Part shown: piece after piece, positions 28,984 through 37,389 of the stretch | How positions within the stretch are numbered: position 1 is the stretch's first letter | Layout: each line of letters starts with the position of its first letter | NCBI GenBank assembly: GCA_947584535.1 | Contig: CANPWO010000008.1 | Span: forward strand, 1-39,045 | DNA: 39,045 nucleotides | DNA from: an uncultured Clostridia bacterium | GTDB lineage: Bacteria > Bacillota > Clostridia > TANB77 > CAG-465 | Direction: 5' to 3' | Notes under the pieces: generated by a model | Told to the model about the DNA's origin: nothing | Databases searched by the model: none | Seen by the model: only the letters and a program-made list of their open reading frames with translations | Translations under genes and position numbers: made by a program

Positions 28984-30165
28984 TTAAGATTCTTTTTCTA
29001 GCTCACTTTGTATAAGTAAGTCATTACTTTTTTTATTAATTAAGTTACGAATAAATATAGTTATAGATGTAAGTAAAATAAATACACCTAATACTATTCC
29101 TACAATATATGGAATATATTTTAAAATAAATTCTGTTGCATAACTTGAATTTTCAAATATATAATTTGATAATACTAGTATTAAAATTCCAAGTAATGTG
29201 GGAATTAGTTCTTGTGACTTTAACTTATTAAACACCTTTTTTATACTTTTACTACATATATACACTATTAAAGTTAAAAATATAAACATACTAAATACAT
29301 TTTGTAGAGCAAGTGTATTTTCAATTCTTTCGATTATATCAAATAAAGAAAATTTCTTTAGCACCATATATTCTGGGTATTTATATATAGAGATAACTTC
29401 ATAACCAAGTACTCCTGTAATAATAAGAAATATTATAAATATAATTATAGAACTTATTATATACATTATACTACTGTTTCTCATAATATGCTCTTTGTTT
29501 TTTACTAACTTTGTTGGTATTATAGTAAGTAAAAATAAAGGAAGAACTCCAAATATCATATACTCTATCCCACCACATACTACAGGTTTAATTCCGTCTG
29601 AAAGTACTGGTAATAAATTGTTATAGTCAAATTCTGAAACTATACCTATACAAGAAAGTAAAAATAATGCTAAATTTATAATAAATATAATTTGACTTAT
29701 CCTACTTATTGTAGCAATGCTCTTTGAAGCAGCATATATAATAACAGTAATTAATAGTATTTTTACATATAAACTACTAGTATCTGGAATATACTGTGTA
29801 TCTAAAAATAAAGCTAGATTATATAGTATTAATGTAGCAAAAAGAATAAGTGCTATATTTAATATTGCATTAATTATTGTACCTACTACATTTCCAAAAA
29901 GTGAAATATTTAAGTCTATTATATCTTCACCACCACTATTTTTTAATATATACATTACAAGCAAAAATGGTATTATTCCTATTAAACTTCCTAATATAAC
30001 GCTTATATATGCATTAACTTGTGCTGTATGAAATATATTGTAACTTGCCATACCTAAGAAGCAAGAATATATTAAAGGAAAAATAAAACTTGAGACTCCC
30101 AGCCCTTGTATCTTATCAGAATCATTTAATTTTGATGTATCTATATCATTTTCTGTATTTACCAT
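28984..30165 (-). CDS. gerAB: Spore germinant receptor B subunit (GerAB/GerKB family)
   Basis: Inner-membrane subunit thought to bind the germinant; related to amino-acid permeases of the APC superfamily. The 393 residues hold about ten hydrophobic segments, starting at about residue 25 (GVSSFIFPLIYSCFLGMASY). The short polar N-terminus (1-22) and Lys/Glu-rich C-terminus are normal. The start overlaps the stop of the C-subunit gene by 7 bases. Last gene of an A-C-B operon. Confidence 0.9.
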   Translation of the reverse strand: MVNTENDIDTSKLNDSDKIQGLGVSSFIFPLIYSCFLGMASYNIFHTAQVNAYISVILGSLIGIIPFLLVMYILKNSGGEDIIDLNISLFGNVVGTIINAILNIALILFATLILYNLALFLDTQYIPDTSSLYVKILLITVIIYAASKSIATISRISQIIFIINLALFLLSCIGIVSEFDYNNLLPVLSDGIKPVVCGGIEYMIFGVLPLFLLTIIPTKLVKNKEHIMRNSSIMYIISSIIIFIIFLIITGVLGYEVISIYKYPEYMVLKKFSLFDIIERIENTLALQNVFSMFIFLTLIVYICSKSIKKVFNKLKSQELIPTLLGILILVLSNYIFENSSYATEFILKYIPYIVGIVLGVFILLTSITIFIRNLINKKSNDLLIQSELEKES

Positions 30166-31391
30166 TTCTTATTAATACCTCCATCATTTGGGAATTCTAT
30201 ATTAACATTAATATTTGTCTTTATATTCTTAAATATTTCTTTGTAAAATACATCTTTTACTTTTATATATTCTTTGTTTAGTTTTTCCCTAAATATCTTA
30301 CCATATCCCATCAAGTCAGAATCATATTCATTTGTACATTTATCAACATATTGTTTAATATATGTATATAGCTCTTGTGAAATAAGTTTTTCATACTCCT
30401 CTATACTTTTATAATCAACATTACCAAGTTTCTTTCCTGTTTCGGCAATATTACAAATGCCCTTTACTTCTATATCCATAATATACTGGCCATTCTCATA
30501 TTTTGGAGTTAAGTTTGCTTTACATTGTACAAACTCTGCTACAAGTCTATCTTCTTTATCTATCTGTATTACTCCACCTTTAAACTTGTTTCTTAATATC
30601 GTATAAGCCATACTTTCTTCTTTTGTCATATAGCCTTTAAATTCATTATCTTTAAAATACGCTAAAGTATCAACTAATATTTTTTCATCTTCTTGTGTAC
30701 TACTATTAGAACTTCCTTGTTCTTGTTCTCCACCAGTTGTGCCACTATTTTCTTGACCGGAACTTTCTGATTCATCCTTTTCATTTTTATCTGATTTTAC
30801 AACTACGATACTTGGCATTACAACTTCTTCACCTTCCTCAAGTAAATTTTCTAGAGTATCATCTAAAAGATTATTTGTAGTAATACCTACATATTTATTA
30901 CTTGCTTTTATACTTTTTACTATATTTTCTGTTGGTATTTCTTCTGCCTGTGTTTTCACCTGCAATGTCTGACTTGGACTTGTTCCTTTTGAAATAACAA
31001 ATAGAAAATCATTACTTCCTTCATTATCTCTAATAAAGAAATCTAAAGCATTAACTAAATCTTTTTTAGCCACTTCTTCAGATACTAGCAAAAGTTCCAT
31101 ATGTGCTAAATATAATCTTTTAGGAGATTCTAATATCATATTCCTAATAGCTTCTTGAACAGAAGGTGCCTCTCTTTCATATACTATCATTTTATTACTT
31201 GCAGAAGATGAGCTACTTCCACTATCTTGTTTTTCTGGATTAAGAACAATTGCTGAAACCTTAAAATTTCCATTTTCTACCTTATCTATACCTATAGCAG
31301 ATACAATAGCCAAATCATTTAATTCTCTTGAATTATTTAGTCCGTTAAGTAGTATCATTGCCATTATAATAACGATTATTTTATACCTCAT
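30159..31391 (-). CDS. gerAC: Spore germinant receptor C subunit (GerAC family), lipobox Cys missing
   Basis: Third germinant-receptor subunit, normally a lipoprotein on the outer face of the inner spore membrane. The 410 residues begin with a signal-like hydrophobic stretch (3-16). The usual L-x-G-C-W-D/N-x-x-E-L motif reads LLNGLNNSREL: Leu stands where the lipidated Cys is expected. The conserved continuation LNDLAIVSAIGID is intact, as is a Ser/Glu/Gln-rich insert (about 200-235) and a C-terminal domain. The start overlaps the A-subunit stop by 4 bases. It may stay anchored by an uncleaved helix. Confidence 0.9.
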   Translation of the reverse strand: MRYKIIVIIMAMILLNGLNNSRELNDLAIVSAIGIDKVENGNFKVSAIVLNPEKQDSGSSSSSASNKMIVYEREAPSVQEAIRNMILESPKRLYLAHMELLLVSEEVAKKDLVNALDFFIRDNEGSNDFLFVISKGTSPSQTLQVKTQAEEIPTENIVKSIKASNKYVGITTNNLLDDTLENLLEEGEEVVMPSIVVVKSDKNEKDESESSGQENSGTTGGEQEQGSSNSSTQEDEKILVDTLAYFKDNEFKGYMTKEESMAYTILRNKFKGGVIQIDKEDRLVAEFVQCKANLTPKYENGQYIMDIEVKGICNIAETGKKLGNVDYKSIEEYEKLISQELYTYIKQYVDKCTNEYDSDLMGYGKIFREKLNKEYIKVKDVFYKEIFKNIKTNINVNIEFPNDGGINKKW

Positions 31392-33016
31392 GAATTATTA
31401 CTCCTATTAACTTTATACTTAGTTATATTATTTGTTAACATTCTTTCTCTATACTTTACCTCAGATACATTCTCTCTTTTTATAAAACGATCTTTTAGCA
31501 CTTTAAAATTTATTGGAGATACAGGATAAGAATATGGTTTTGTAAAGCTACTAGTTGCAGATACTTTAGTAATTAAAAATAGTGTTGCAACTCCAACTCC
31601 AATAAGTCCTGCAAGACTTGCAAATATTAAAAATACTAGTCTCCAAATTCTAAGTGAATTACTCATGTTAATATCTGGGAACATTAAGCCCGATATTGTA
31701 GTTATTGCTATAACTATTATCATAATTGGTGAAACTATACCCGCACTAACAGCAGCGTCTCCAAGAATTAATGCACCTACAATGGAAAGTGTATTTCCTG
31801 CAGCATTTGGCACTCTATAATCGCCCTCTCTTAGTATTTCAAAAGAAAGTATCATAAGTATTGCTTCAAAAAATGCGGGAAAGGGCACGCCTTTTCTTTG
31901 CGATACAAACGAAAGTAATAATTCCGTAGGTATTGCTTCTTGGTTAAATGTTATAAGGGAAATATATACTGCTGGAGTAAATATTGTTATAAAAAAAGCA
32001 ATATACCTTACAATTTTAGTTATTGTAACATCTTGACTTTTTTGATAATAGTCATCCATATTATTTATGAAATCTTCCATAAATGCAGGAAGTACTAAAG
32101 TTAATGGACTGTTTTCAACAACTATTGCAACTCTTCCTTCTAATAAATAAAGAGATACTAAATCTGGCCTTTCTGTACTTATCATTGTTGGAAATGCACT
32201 TTTATTTGAGCTTTCAAGTATTTCAAGTATATAATTACTATCAAGTATTGCATCAATATCTATTTTTTTTAATCTCTTTTTTATATCAGCTACAAGTTCT
32301 CCTTTAGCTATATCAGATATATATAATACTCCTACTTTAGTTTTACTTCGTCTACCTATTTTACTTTCATCTAATACTAACTTTTCGCTTTTTATCCTTT
32401 TTCTTATAAGAGCTAAATTAATTTGATAGTTTTCTGTAAAAGAATCTTTTGGTCCTTTGATGGTATTTTCTGTCATAGGTGTACTTATTGCCCTATCAAT
32501 ATTTCCTTTAGTTTCTACTACTAATATATCTTTGTTATATATAATACAAGTAAAGCCTGAATAAATATAGTAAAAAATATCTTCTGAGCTTAAATCTATT
32601 TTTTTCACCTTACTTATTGATATTTTTTTACTTAGAGCATCTATAATATCATCCATATTTATTTCTTTATCTTGATACTTTTTATTTAGATTATCATATA
32701 CTCTTTGCTTTTTGTTAATTTTAGATTTATCTACTTTTAAGTTACTATCTATATAATTATCAAGTTCATTTGTAATAGTATTTAATTGCATCTCTTTTTT
32801 GTAATCATCAGATATTGATATAATACTCTTTACTACAAAATTTGATATAATATCGGTATCTGTCATTGCTTCGTTATACACTGCATATATTGTGTCATTT
32901 AATACATTTATCTCTCTATATACCATATCAGGACTATCAAATGTACTTTCTTTTATATACTTAATTATATCTTCTGATGTTTTTAAATTTCGTATTTTTT
33001 CTTCAATCTGTTCCAT
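31388..33016 (-). CDS. gerAA: Spore germinant receptor A subunit (GerAA/GerKA family)
   Basis: Large receptor subunit: a soluble N-terminal domain (about 1-300) and a membrane domain with about five helices. Family landmarks are TERPDLVSLYLLEGRVAIVV (near 285-305), the SPLTLVLPAFMEDF stretch, GVPFPAFFEAILM and the short basic C-terminus after ITKVSATSSFTKPYSYP. 542 residues, a normal length. AAGGAGAA precedes the ATG. A SigG-like promoter lies 20-50 bases upstream, fitting forespore expression. Confidence 0.95.
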   Translation of the reverse strand: MEQIEEKIRNLKTSEDIIKYIKESTFDSPDMVYREINVLNDTIYAVYNEAMTDTDIISNFVVKSIISISDDYKKEMQLNTITNELDNYIDSNLKVDKSKINKKQRVYDNLNKKYQDKEINMDDIIDALSKKISISKVKKIDLSSEDIFYYIYSGFTCIIYNKDILVVETKGNIDRAISTPMTENTIKGPKDSFTENYQINLALIRKRIKSEKLVLDESKIGRRSKTKVGVLYISDIAKGELVADIKKRLKKIDIDAILDSNYILEILESSNKSAFPTMISTERPDLVSLYLLEGRVAIVVENSPLTLVLPAFMEDFINNMDDYYQKSQDVTITKIVRYIAFFITIFTPAVYISLITFNQEAIPTELLLSFVSQRKGVPFPAFFEAILMILSFEILREGDYRVPNAAGNTLSIVGALILGDAAVSAGIVSPIMIIVIAITTISGLMFPDINMSNSLRIWRLVFLIFASLAGLIGVGVATLFLITKVSATSSFTKPYSYPVSPINFKVLKDRFIKRENVSEVKYRERMLTNNITKYKVNRSNNS

Positions 33017-34390: not shown

Positions 34391-34460
34391 ATATATCAAC
34401 TCCAAACTATATACTATAAATTTTATAATAAATTTATTTTTTTGTAAACAAAAAATTTGC

Positions 34461-34494
34461 AAAAAAGCAGCTACTTACTTGTAACTGCTTTTTT
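34461..34494 (-). terminator. Terminator of the copper operon
   Basis: AAAAAAGCAGTTAC pairs with GTAGCTGCTTTTTT (one mismatch) on the minus strand, 8 bases past the copA stop, with a T-run at the end. Confidence 0.75.
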
Positions 34495-34502
34495 ACATCA
34501 AT

Positions 34503-34721
34503 TTACTTTATTTCCTTTACTTCAAAGCCTGCCTCTTTAATTACATCTTCTATTTTGCTATTTTCAATATCATCATTTGATTTAACAACTGCTTTTTTAC
34601 CTTCTAAATCAACATCCACTGAAACAACACCTTCAATACTATTTAATGCTTTTTCAACAGTCATTTTGCAATGATTACATTGCATTCCTTCAATAAATAC
34701 TATTTTTTCTTTTATATCCAT
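34503..34721 (-). CDS. copZ: CopZ-like copper chaperone, internal start within copA
   Basis: The last 72 codons of the copA frame are preceded by a full ribosome site (AAGGAGG, 34730-34736) 8 bases before an in-frame ATG. Translation from it would give a free single-domain heavy-metal chaperone, MDIKEKIVFIEGMQCNHC..., with the CxxC copper site at 15-18 of the short form and a typical 70-residue ferredoxin-like length. In many Firmicutes copZ is a separate gene after copA. Here no stop codon separates them. Real use of the internal start is inference. Confidence 0.55.
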   Translation of the reverse strand: MDIKEKIVFIEGMQCNHCKMTVEKALNSIEGVVSVDVDLEGKKAVVKSNDDIENSKIEDVIKEAGFEVKEIK

Positions 34722-37025
34722 TTTCTTTTCCTCCTTATATTTAATTTTAAAACTTCTAAGCCTTAATGCATTTGTAACTACACAAACCGAACTTAAACTC
34801 ATTGCTGCAGCTGCAAGCATAGGACTTAAACTTATACCAAATGGTAAATACAATATACCTGCTGCAATTGGAATTAGAATAATATTATATGCAAATGCCC
34901 AGAACAAATTCATTTTTATATTTCTAATTACCGACTTACTTAGATCAACTAAAGTAACTATATCTAACAAACTATTCTTCATAAGTACCACATCAGCTGA
35001 TTCAACAGCAATATCTGTACCAGAAGAAATTGCAACACCTACGTCAGCACTTACTAGCGCTATACTATCATTTATTCCATCTCCAACAAAAGCAACTTTT
35101 TTTCCTTCACTTTGTAATTTTCTTACAACGTCTTGCTTTTCTTGTGGTAAAACTTCTGACACAATATTATCTATTTTAACCTCTTTACCAATAGTTTCAG
35201 CTACTTTTTTATTATCTCCAGTTACCATTATAACATCTATATTTCTTTTCTTAAGTTCTTCTATAGCAGTATAACTTGTAGCCTTAATATTATCTGCAAT
35301 AGTAATAATCCCAAGTAATTGCTTATTATTAGCAAAATATATAACAGTTTTCCCCTGATGAAGAAATTTTTGCATCTCTTTATCAACACTATCCACATTT
35401 ATATTATTATCTTCCATAAAGATAGTATTACCTGCAAAATATCTAGTATTTTCTATTATACCTGATACTCCTCTACCTGATACATATCTAAAATCTTTCA
35501 CATCTAAAAGCTCTATATTTTGTTCTTTTGCTCTGTCAAGTATTGCAGTTGCAATTAAATGCTCTGAATTTTTTTCAAGACTTGCAATATATTTTAATAT
35601 GTCAGTATCATTTGCAATATTAATAACATCAATTACTTTTACATTGCCCTCAGTTATAGTACCTGTTTTATCTAATACAACAGTATCAACTAAATGCATA
35701 GTTTCCAAACTTTCAGCTGATTTTATAAGAATACCTTCTTTTGCACCTCTACCTGTTCCTACCATTACAGCTACTGGTGTTGCAAGTCCCAGTGCACAAG
35801 GACATGATATTACAAGTACAGATATTGCAAAATTTAATGCTTCCGCAACATTTTTTACGCTAAACATCCATATTAAAAATGTAATAATTGCAATTATTAT
35901 TACAACTGGCACAAATATACCACTTACCTTATCTGCAAGTTTAGAAATAGGCGCTTTAGAATTACTTGCTTCTTCTACTAATTTAATAATTTGTGATAAA
36001 GTAGTATCCTTACCAACTTTTGTAGCTTTTATTTCAATATATCCATTTTTATTTGTTGTTCCAGAAATAACTTTATCACCTATTTCTTTTTTAATAGGTA
36101 TACTTTCTCCAGTTATACTTGACTCATCTACAAAAGTGCTACCTTTAGTTACAATTCCATCAACTGCAATATTATTTCCAGGTTTTATAACTAAAATATC
36201 ATTTACTAATATCTCATCAATTTTTATTTCTATCTCTTTACCATCTCTAATTACTACCCCAGTACTAGGCACTAAATTTACAAGTTTACTTATTGCCTCT
36301 GTTGTTTTCCCTTTAGATTTAGTTTCTAAAAATTTCCCTACTGTAATTAAAGTAAGTATCATAGCTGAAGATTCAAAGTATAAATTAGCAGAATATCTAT
36401 TTACTATATCATAATTTAAATGTCCAAGCCCATATCCTATCATAAATATAGCAAATATGCCCCATATACAAGAAATACTACTACCAAGGGCTATAAGCGA
36501 GTCCATATTAGGACTTCCTTTAAATAGTTTTTTAAATCCAACAATAAAATACTTTCTATTAACATATATTATTGGAAGTAATAATATAAACTGTGTAAAC
36601 GAATATATTAAAGCATTTTCTGTCCCATCAAATATTATTTTTATAATATCAGGTACTGGTATCTTAAAAAACATATATAACATATGATGCATTGAAACAT
36701 ACATAAGAGGTATAAGGAAACAAATCGAAATAATAAGTCTTTTTTTCATAGATTTTATTTCATTATCAATACTATCAACTTTAGTTATTTCCTCTTTCTT
36801 TTCTTCATTACTACTAATCTTAGCATTATAACCAGCACTTTCTACACTATTAATTATACTATCATTATTTGTAATACTTTCATCATACTCAACTATCATA
36901 TTATTTAAAAGTAGATTAACATTTACACTTTTTACACCTTCAAGTTTTGAAACTGCTTTTTCTACATGTGAAGAACAACTACTACATGTCATTCCTATAA
37001 CATCAAACTTTTCTTTTTTAATCAC
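34503..37025 (-). CDS. copA: Copper-exporting P1B-type ATPase with C-terminal CopZ domain
   Basis: Exports Cu(I) at the expense of ATP. In 840 residues: an N-terminal HMA domain with GMTCSSC (C14, C17); membrane helices from about 97; TGES at 305-308; the Cu(I) motif CPC at 408-410; DKTGT with D452; hinge GDGIND at 648-653; membrane Cu ligands in AFAYN and AMSLSS (about 741-746). The HP motif SEHP reads SEHL (487-490), and NDAP/NDSP reads NDSI (652-655). From residue 769 a second HMA domain (CNHC, 783-786) is fused to the C-terminus, which is unusual for this family, whose extra domains are normally N-terminal. It lies 12 bases after csoR in one CsoR-controlled operon. Confidence 0.95.
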   Translation of the reverse strand: MIKKEKFDVIGMTCSSCSSHVEKAVSKLEGVKSVNVNLLLNNMIVEYDESITNNDSIINSVESAGYNAKISSNEEKKEEITKVDSIDNEIKSMKKRLIISICFLIPLMYVSMHHMLYMFFKIPVPDIIKIIFDGTENALIYSFTQFILLLPIIYVNRKYFIVGFKKLFKGSPNMDSLIALGSSISCIWGIFAIFMIGYGLGHLNYDIVNRYSANLYFESSAMILTLITVGKFLETKSKGKTTEAISKLVNLVPSTGVVIRDGKEIEIKIDEILVNDILVIKPGNNIAVDGIVTKGSTFVDESSITGESIPIKKEIGDKVISGTTNKNGYIEIKATKVGKDTTLSQIIKLVEEASNSKAPISKLADKVSGIFVPVVIIIAIITFLIWMFSVKNVAEALNFAISVLVISCPCALGLATPVAVMVGTGRGAKEGILIKSAESLETMHLVDTVVLDKTGTITEGNVKVIDVINIANDTDILKYIASLEKNSEHLIATAILDRAKEQNIELLDVKDFRYVSGRGVSGIIENTRYFAGNTIFMEDNNINVDSVDKEMQKFLHQGKTVIYFANNKQLLGIITIADNIKATSYTAIEELKKRNIDVIMVTGDNKKVAETIGKEVKIDNIVSEVLPQEKQDVVRKLQSEGKKVAFVGDGINDSIALVSADVGVAISSGTDIAVESADVVLMKNSLLDIVTLVDLSKSVIRNIKMNLFWAFAYNIILIPIAAGILYLPFGISLSPMLAAAAMSLSSVCVVTNALRLRSFKIKYKEEKKMDIKEKIVFIEGMQCNHCKMTVEKALNSIEGVVSVDVDLEGKKAVVKSNDDIENSKIEDVIKEAGFEVKEIK

Positions 37026-37037
37026 AAACTCACCTTC

Positions 37038-37343
37038 TTACTGTAGCTTTTTAACAAGATTCATAACTTCATCTATTATTTCAAGATTATCCTCTTTAAT
37101 TTCACGAGTAACACAAGTTCTAAGATGTCTATCTAATATATTATTCCCCAAACTTTTCAAAGCATTAGTAACAGCTGCAATTTGTATTAATATATCATTA
37201 CAATATCTATCTTCTTTAATCATTTGATTTATTCCTCTAACTTGCCCTTCTATAATGTTTAATCTTTTTATTAATTTATCTTTTTCTTCATCACTTCTAT
37301 ATGTGCTTTTATTACTACACATTTTACACTCTTGTTTATTCAC
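37038..37343 (-). CDS. csoR: CsoR-family copper-sensing repressor
   Basis: All-helical repressor released from DNA by Cu(I). The Cu ligands Cys-His-Cys are in RYCNDIL and HLRTC; the core RLNIIEGQVRGINQMI is the family signature. A further CxxC-like pair (ECKMC) lies at the N-terminus. The start is uncertain: an ATG at 37355 is only 4 bases from the -10 box and cannot be used by that promoter; I prefer the GTG at 37343 behind GGTGAT; an ATG at 37322 is also possible. First gene of the csoR-copA operon. Confidence 0.92.
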   Translation of the reverse strand: MNKQECKMCSNKSTYRSDEEKDKLIKRLNIIEGQVRGINQMIKEDRYCNDILIQIAAVTNALKSLGNNILDRHLRTCVTREIKEDNLEIIDEVMNLVKKLQ

Positions 37344-37359
37344 TAAAATCACCATAATT

Positions 37360-37389
37360 ATTATATACCCCTATAGGGTATGTTGTCAA
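37360..37389 (-). promoter_or_regulatory. Promoter of csoR-copA with embedded operator
   Basis: Minus-strand TTGACA (37384-37389), 18-base spacer, TATAAT (37360-37365). The spacer is almost wholly the CsoR-type operator, so binding would block RNA polymerase. Confidence 0.8.
37365..37381. promoter_or_regulatory. CsoR-type operator
   Basis: ATACCC-CTATA-GGGTAT: 6-base inverted arms with the C-run/G-run pattern of CsoR sites (TACCCC...GGGGTA). It sits between -35 and -10 of its own operon. Confidence 0.8.

Follow-up and report, generated by a model that had tools for sequence, protein, structure and literature searches.

In Escherichia coli, the gene copA gives rise to a free copper chaperone, CopA(Z), which corresponds to the N-terminal HMA domain and is produced via a -1 frameshift at the slippery heptamer CCCAAAG. 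This programmed frameshift in copA was described by Meydan et al. (2017) and Drees et al. (2017), both cited in PMC7558416. A different origin of small proteins is known for Cas11, which is derived from internal starts in cas8 and cas10 genes (PMC11899642 and works cited there). Furthermore, internal-start proteoforms of ArcB, ClpB, IF2, and MrcB were reported for E. coli (Meydan et al., 2019, according to the account in PMC11005335). In the tcr/cop operons of Enterococcus, pump and chaperone are encoded side by side, with a stop codon separating copA and copZ, and copZ or tcrZ was found annotated beside the ATPase in plasmid matches. In addition, a copper pump with a CopZ-like domain at its C-terminus is known. 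To our knowledge, no internal start has been reported for this pump. The paper which treats it describes two MBDs (PMC11970713). No description of a fused CopA-CopZ with an internal start was found in the literature searched, in which the coverage of subscription journals was thin.

The locus described here is located in a window of 39,045 nucleotides, which is the whole stretch of DNA analyzed, from an uncultured Clostridia bacterium. The copper genes and their signals are as follows:

34458..34497, minus strand: intrinsic terminator directly 3′ of the copA-copZ stop.
34503..37025, minus strand: fused ORF copA-copZ, 840 aa, GTG start and TAA stop, with N-terminal HMA, P1B-type ATPase core, linker, and CopZ domain.
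34503..34721 (stop codon included), minus strand: nested copZ, predicted 72-aa product with the motif GMQCNHC, assigned by fold and motif.
34719..34721, minus strand: internal in-frame ATG, residue 769 of 840, predicted start of free CopZ, at a position conserved in relatives.
34722..34760, minus strand: linker from TM8 (NALRL) to the CopZ start, in relatives variable in length and sequence with the exception of the Shine-Dalgarno (SD) sequence.
34730..34736, minus strand: internal SD AAGGAGG, anti-SD duplex of -12.2 kcal/mol, 8 nt 5′ of the ATG.
36828..37007, minus strand: N-terminal HMA domain (GMTCSSC) in copA-copZ, the only other HMA of the genome besides the CopZ domain.
37038..37355, minus strand: metal-sensitive repressor gene of the csoR type, immediately upstream of copA.
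37360..37389, minus strand: promoter-like site TTGACA-18-TATAAT upstream of csoR, a consensus match only (12 of 12 positions).
37366..37380, minus strand: CsoR-operator-like inverted repeat TACCCTATAGGGGTA between both promoter hexamers.

The repeat TACCCTATAGGGGTA upstream of csoR is taken by us to resemble CsoR operators. Another minus-strand region of the window (28984-33016) contains three genes in a row (542, 410, and 393 aa) which resemble a GerA/GerK-type spore-germination receptor operon.

The copA-copZ ORF contains no internal stop from its GTG to its TAA, and the view of a preliminary description, that the copA frame enters a CopZ domain without a stop, was thereby confirmed. The protein reaches 588 bits with TIGR01511 (cut-off 397) and 626 bits with TIGR01525 (cut-off 346), and it contains the CPC metal site and a PF00403 HMA domain. 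Based on this family and the csoR neighbor, it can be assumed that the CopA of the window exports Cu+. An assembly artefact at the copA-copZ junction was rejected because many genomes agree, as the same junction is present in a genome of the same genus (88% protein identity) and in several at 61-63%.

The AAGGAGG located 8 nt before the in-frame ATG at 34721, which had likewise been pointed out before, was verified, and this ATG opens a complete 72-aa CopZ. With -12.2 kcal/mol, its SD is the best among the 23 in-frame ATGs of the gene, the next best reaching -5.7, and it exceeds that of copA's own GTG start (-6.5 kcal/mol). AGGAGG-N4..10-ATG pairs occur 15 times in the window, and only the copA-internal one is located deep within a long open frame, with 772 open codons upstream vs. 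0-19 for the other 14.

The 72 residues from the ATG form a complete CopZ fold (AlphaFold2 mean pLDDT 90) and match solved CopZ chains. They comprise one HMA domain of approximately 70 aa with a GMxCxxC motif and the fold strand-helix-strand-strand-helix-strand. The curated CopZ models of NCBIfam score below their cut-offs (NF047957 with 64.6 bits vs. 85, TIGR00003 with 54.8 vs. 62), and the nested product is named by fold, motif, and context in the sense of "works like CopZ", not as a formal member of these models. A second CopZ was not found in the genome of the window (98.8% complete), in which HMA matches are limited to the two of the CopA-CopZ protein.

In all likelihood, copA carries a nested copZ which is translated by internal initiation. 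csoR followed by copA-copZ would then form a copper-export operon with a second gene nested inside copA. Ribosomes starting at GTG 37025 would synthesize the 840-aa pump with the CopZ domain tethered at its C-terminus, for which the open frame was observed, and ribosomes that bind the internal AAGGAGG and initiate at ATG 34721 would synthesize the free 72-aa CopZ, to which strong comparative evidence points. By analogy to CopZ elsewhere, the free protein may collect cytosolic Cu+ and pass it to CopA. The stronger internal SD (-12.2 vs. -6.5 kcal/mol) may favor an excess of the chaperone over the pump, and copper would induce both through CsoR.

The outcome would resemble that of E. coli, where a single copA gene likewise yields the copper ATPase together with a free copper chaperone of one domain. 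However, CopA(Z) is N-terminal and depends on a frameshift, whereas in the window it is the C-terminal domain for which in-frame internal initiation is predicted. The slippery heptamer CCCAAAG is absent from the copA ORF of the window, which does not belong to the frameshift type. The parallel to E. coli by another mechanism, drawn before from the window alone, is apt. With Cas11, the nested copZ shares the in-frame internal start with an SD-like site, by which a C-terminal part becomes a separate small subunit. The two cases differ in gene family and function, as the large product of copA is a transporter in the membrane, to which the small one would donate the metal. In ArcB and the similar cases, in-frame internal initiation also leads to a C-terminal proteoform, but these were discovered experimentally and in a small number of species, whereas the predicted nested copZ emerged from sequence comparison and shows conservation over many families. 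Compared to the tcr/cop operons, the frame runs through and the copZ start is retained.

The conservation of the internal start was analyzed in 213 non-redundant fused genes, whose linkers between TM8 and GMxCxxC are 19 to 87 aa long. In a strict test, the block of codons -14 to -6 before GMxCxxC was compared with 15,484 equally sized control blocks from the same genes. A start codon is present in the block of 208 of the 213 fused genes (44.6% of the control blocks), a start with an SD of at most -5 kcal/mol in 205 (9.5%), and a strong SD of at most -8 kcal/mol in 165 or 77% (1.3%). The enrichment has a Fisher p of ~1e-241, which serves as a guide only, since the genes are related. In about 30 of the 213 genes, the SD is weak or absent (above -7 kcal/mol). 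Among the best start sites (n = 211) there are 200 ATG, 10 GTG, and 1 TTG, and the start lies exactly 8 codons before GMxCxxC in 145 of them despite the wide range of linker lengths. Where residue -8 is a valine, its codon is GTG in four of four cases, too few to carry weight. A second N-terminal HMA domain, taken as a negative control, yielded no case with the pattern used. The fused genes show what is expected of a nested gene, namely an internal in-frame start that has an SD of its own, is located within a longer open frame, and is conserved among relatives. The proposal, made originally for the window, that one gene leads both to a long CopA-CopZ and to free CopZ is very probably right by comparison of these 213 fused genes.

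Bacteroidota mostly start translation without SD sites. They were considered as a natural control, and a single fused, stop-free case was found among the matches covering the whole query (L135 in the Bacteroidota bin G1141), in which the ATG at -8 is kept and the SD is missing (energy +2.2). The lack of an SD is as expected for this phylum, but the contig could be misbinned, and the case is anecdotal because it is the only one.

The fusion itself had previously been ascribed to a recent loss of a stop codon between two genes. This part of the earlier interpretation turned out to be wrong, whereas the two products and the parallel to E. coli were upheld. The fusion is old, common in Clostridia, and shared by relatives at 61-63% identity. 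When the nearest relatives were checked for a stop between the copA and copZ parts, it was found in one genome only (G016), a near relative with split genes, where the stop is followed by a copZ gene that stands apart and carries an SD of its own. Fused CopA-CopZ proteins were found through the order, in many families of the class, elsewhere in the phylum, and beyond Clostridia, including the named isolates Acetobacterium tundrae, Megasphaera massiliensis, Butyrivibrio, and Gemmiger. In A. tundrae (L100), the fused gene also possesses the internal start. Most genomes of the relatives are metagenome-assembled. In one relative (L010, G026:C69), the copA frame is broken upstream with seven stops within the match, while the junction is open and the SD weak, which indicates a pseudogene or an assembly error.

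A FastTree tree was calculated from 259 CopA cores without the linker. Several of its clades are purely fused, the largest with 96 tips (support 100) and a mean depth of 0.59 substitutions per site, the others with 27 tips, 10 tips, and fewer. By these large clades and the relatives, a recent stop loss is ruled out. On the same tree, at least nine changes between the fused and the split state are required. This number would fit recent and repeated fusions of copA and copZ, after which SD and ATG are useless leftovers and only the long protein matters. The gene order of split relatives fits as well, since their copA and copZ are separate, adjacent, and in frame and share SD and start position with the fused genes, most copZ starting 8 codons before the motif, and the loss of a stop would yield exactly the observed arrangement. 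Such an origin as a relic is nevertheless highly unlikely. Within the 96-tip clade, whose median pairwise distance is ~0.96 substitutions per site, start and SD are kept in 92 tips. Moreover, stop-free linkers of up to 87 aa exceed the gaps of the split genes listed and are unalignable, yet SD and start persist in them. That the internal start coincides with the true start of the copZ genes in split relatives is also in favor of a nested copZ. The internal start does not seem to be a leftover because it is conserved in fused clades as if under selection. The unalignable linkers and the tree argue that this conservation is not plain inheritance, and the tests across genomes are partly corrected for shared ancestry.

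Codon usage at the SD shows a strong bias, which also speaks against useless leftovers. The mean SD energy is -9.4 kcal/mol, compared with -5.0 after synonymous resampling of the same residues (p 5e-36), and in 97% of the genes the observed SD surpasses the mean of the resampled sequences. Glutamate at position start-4 is encoded by GAG in 133 and by GAA in 14 cases (90% GAG), whereas the other glutamates of the linkers show 157 GAG and 601 GAA (21%). The same numbers bear on the idea that only the protein demands a K/E-rich tether and the methionine with which the CopZ fold begins, the SD being a by-product of the amino acids. Lysine and glutamate codons can indeed spell AAGGAGGA by chance, and the resampled mean still amounts to -5.0 kcal/mol, but this constraint does not account for the surplus in the observed energies or for the preference for GAG at the SD. 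In addition, other linkers encode the SD through different residues, e.g., GG, RR, or QE. A purely protein-level constraint is thus hardly credible, and it appears that the codons, beyond the residues alone, are selected for the SD.

In the shortest linkers, the SD follows shortly after the last transmembrane helix, and it might act as a pause site which slows ribosomes for the insertion of the last transmembrane helices, the ATG being incidental. This is very improbable. The distance between TM8 and the SD varies widely with the linkers, whereas the spacing between SD and ATG and between ATG and CopZ is fixed, and pausing requires no start codon, yet 208 of the 213 genes have one. Two CopA proteins (L280 in G583, and L165) were also observed to carry a tandem pair of HMA domains at the C-terminus. 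In L280, start and SD precede only the second and last of these domains, so that the site has shifted to the last domain, which argues against pausing and in favor of a nested copZ. In L165 they precede the first. The predicted short product would comprise one domain in L280 and two in L165.

Free CopZ may also, or mainly, be translated from a short mRNA that begins at an internal promoter, so that the internal start serves only this transcript, or be released by proteolysis of the linker. An internal promoter would employ the same SD and ATG, and promoter-like sites exist within the gene, but 28 were found vs. 23.4 expected, which is no excess. Proteolysis requires neither an SD nor a start codon. 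Either of these routes seems unlikely, although less so than the explanations discussed above. Regarding the preferred explanation of internal initiation, the nested-copZ design is, as judged by these comparisons, old and used across Clostridia, with the start codon and the SD codons apparently held by selection.

A fused gene without a working start was found in five genomes of four lineages (L240/G456, L275/G483, L249/G611, L194/G720, and L330/G517). All five also encode a soluble GMxCxxC CopZ in a separate gene that starts from an SD of its own, in comparison to 2 of 69 genomes with the start (G628 and G398). This complementarity, which favors a nested copZ, has a Fisher p of 1.3e-6, or 1.4e-5 if two genomes of the same genus count once, under criteria for free CopZ (GMxCxxC, at least 30 bits to a purpose-built CopZ profile, soluble, start near the domain) that were set after viewing the candidates. 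The count leaves out LDCANC-type and membrane-anchored Cys-rich small HMA proteins as well as two ORFs of anchored length (G599, G458), and it combines two genome batches with slightly different E-value limits (1e-5 and 1e-7). A missing copZ may represent an assembly gap, because most genomes are metagenome-assembled. In a further genome (L229/G746), a good start is absent from one fused copy, but the other fused copy (L184) has one. Why startless cases possess another CopZ would be left unexplained if the internal start were a relic. The need for the nested start is not absolute, since the SD is weak or absent in about 30 of the 213 genes, and a separate CopZ accompanies the internal start in G628, G398, and some named genomes.

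It is probable that copA hides a copZ with a conserved internal start in Clostridia and some other bacteria, that this is a second, independent, and so far undescribed pump-plus-chaperone solution beside the frameshifting of E. coli, and that the start is lost mostly when another free CopZ exists. If so, gene callers which report one ORF at this locus would overlook a copper chaperone in many Clostridia. Two translational routes from one copA to pump and chaperone would also have arisen in unrelated bacteria, and such independent routes suggest a strong pressure to keep the two together. The family offers a clean natural test of internal initiation, because its many unalignable linkers conserve little except the SD and the start codon.

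Finally, other small HMA proteins were observed in these genomes. Four of them (L401 in G457, L396 in G628, and L409 and L410 in G1152) appear to be Cys-rich, membrane-anchored proteins with a GM(H/Q)CxxC HMA domain at their C-terminal end, the genes of G457 and G628 being located just upstream of the fused copA. A further family comprises soluble HMA proteins of 72-93 aa with a (L/V)DCANCA motif and a strong SD (L382, L384-L389, L391-L394, and others), which is widespread in the same genomes and clearly distinct from CopZ.
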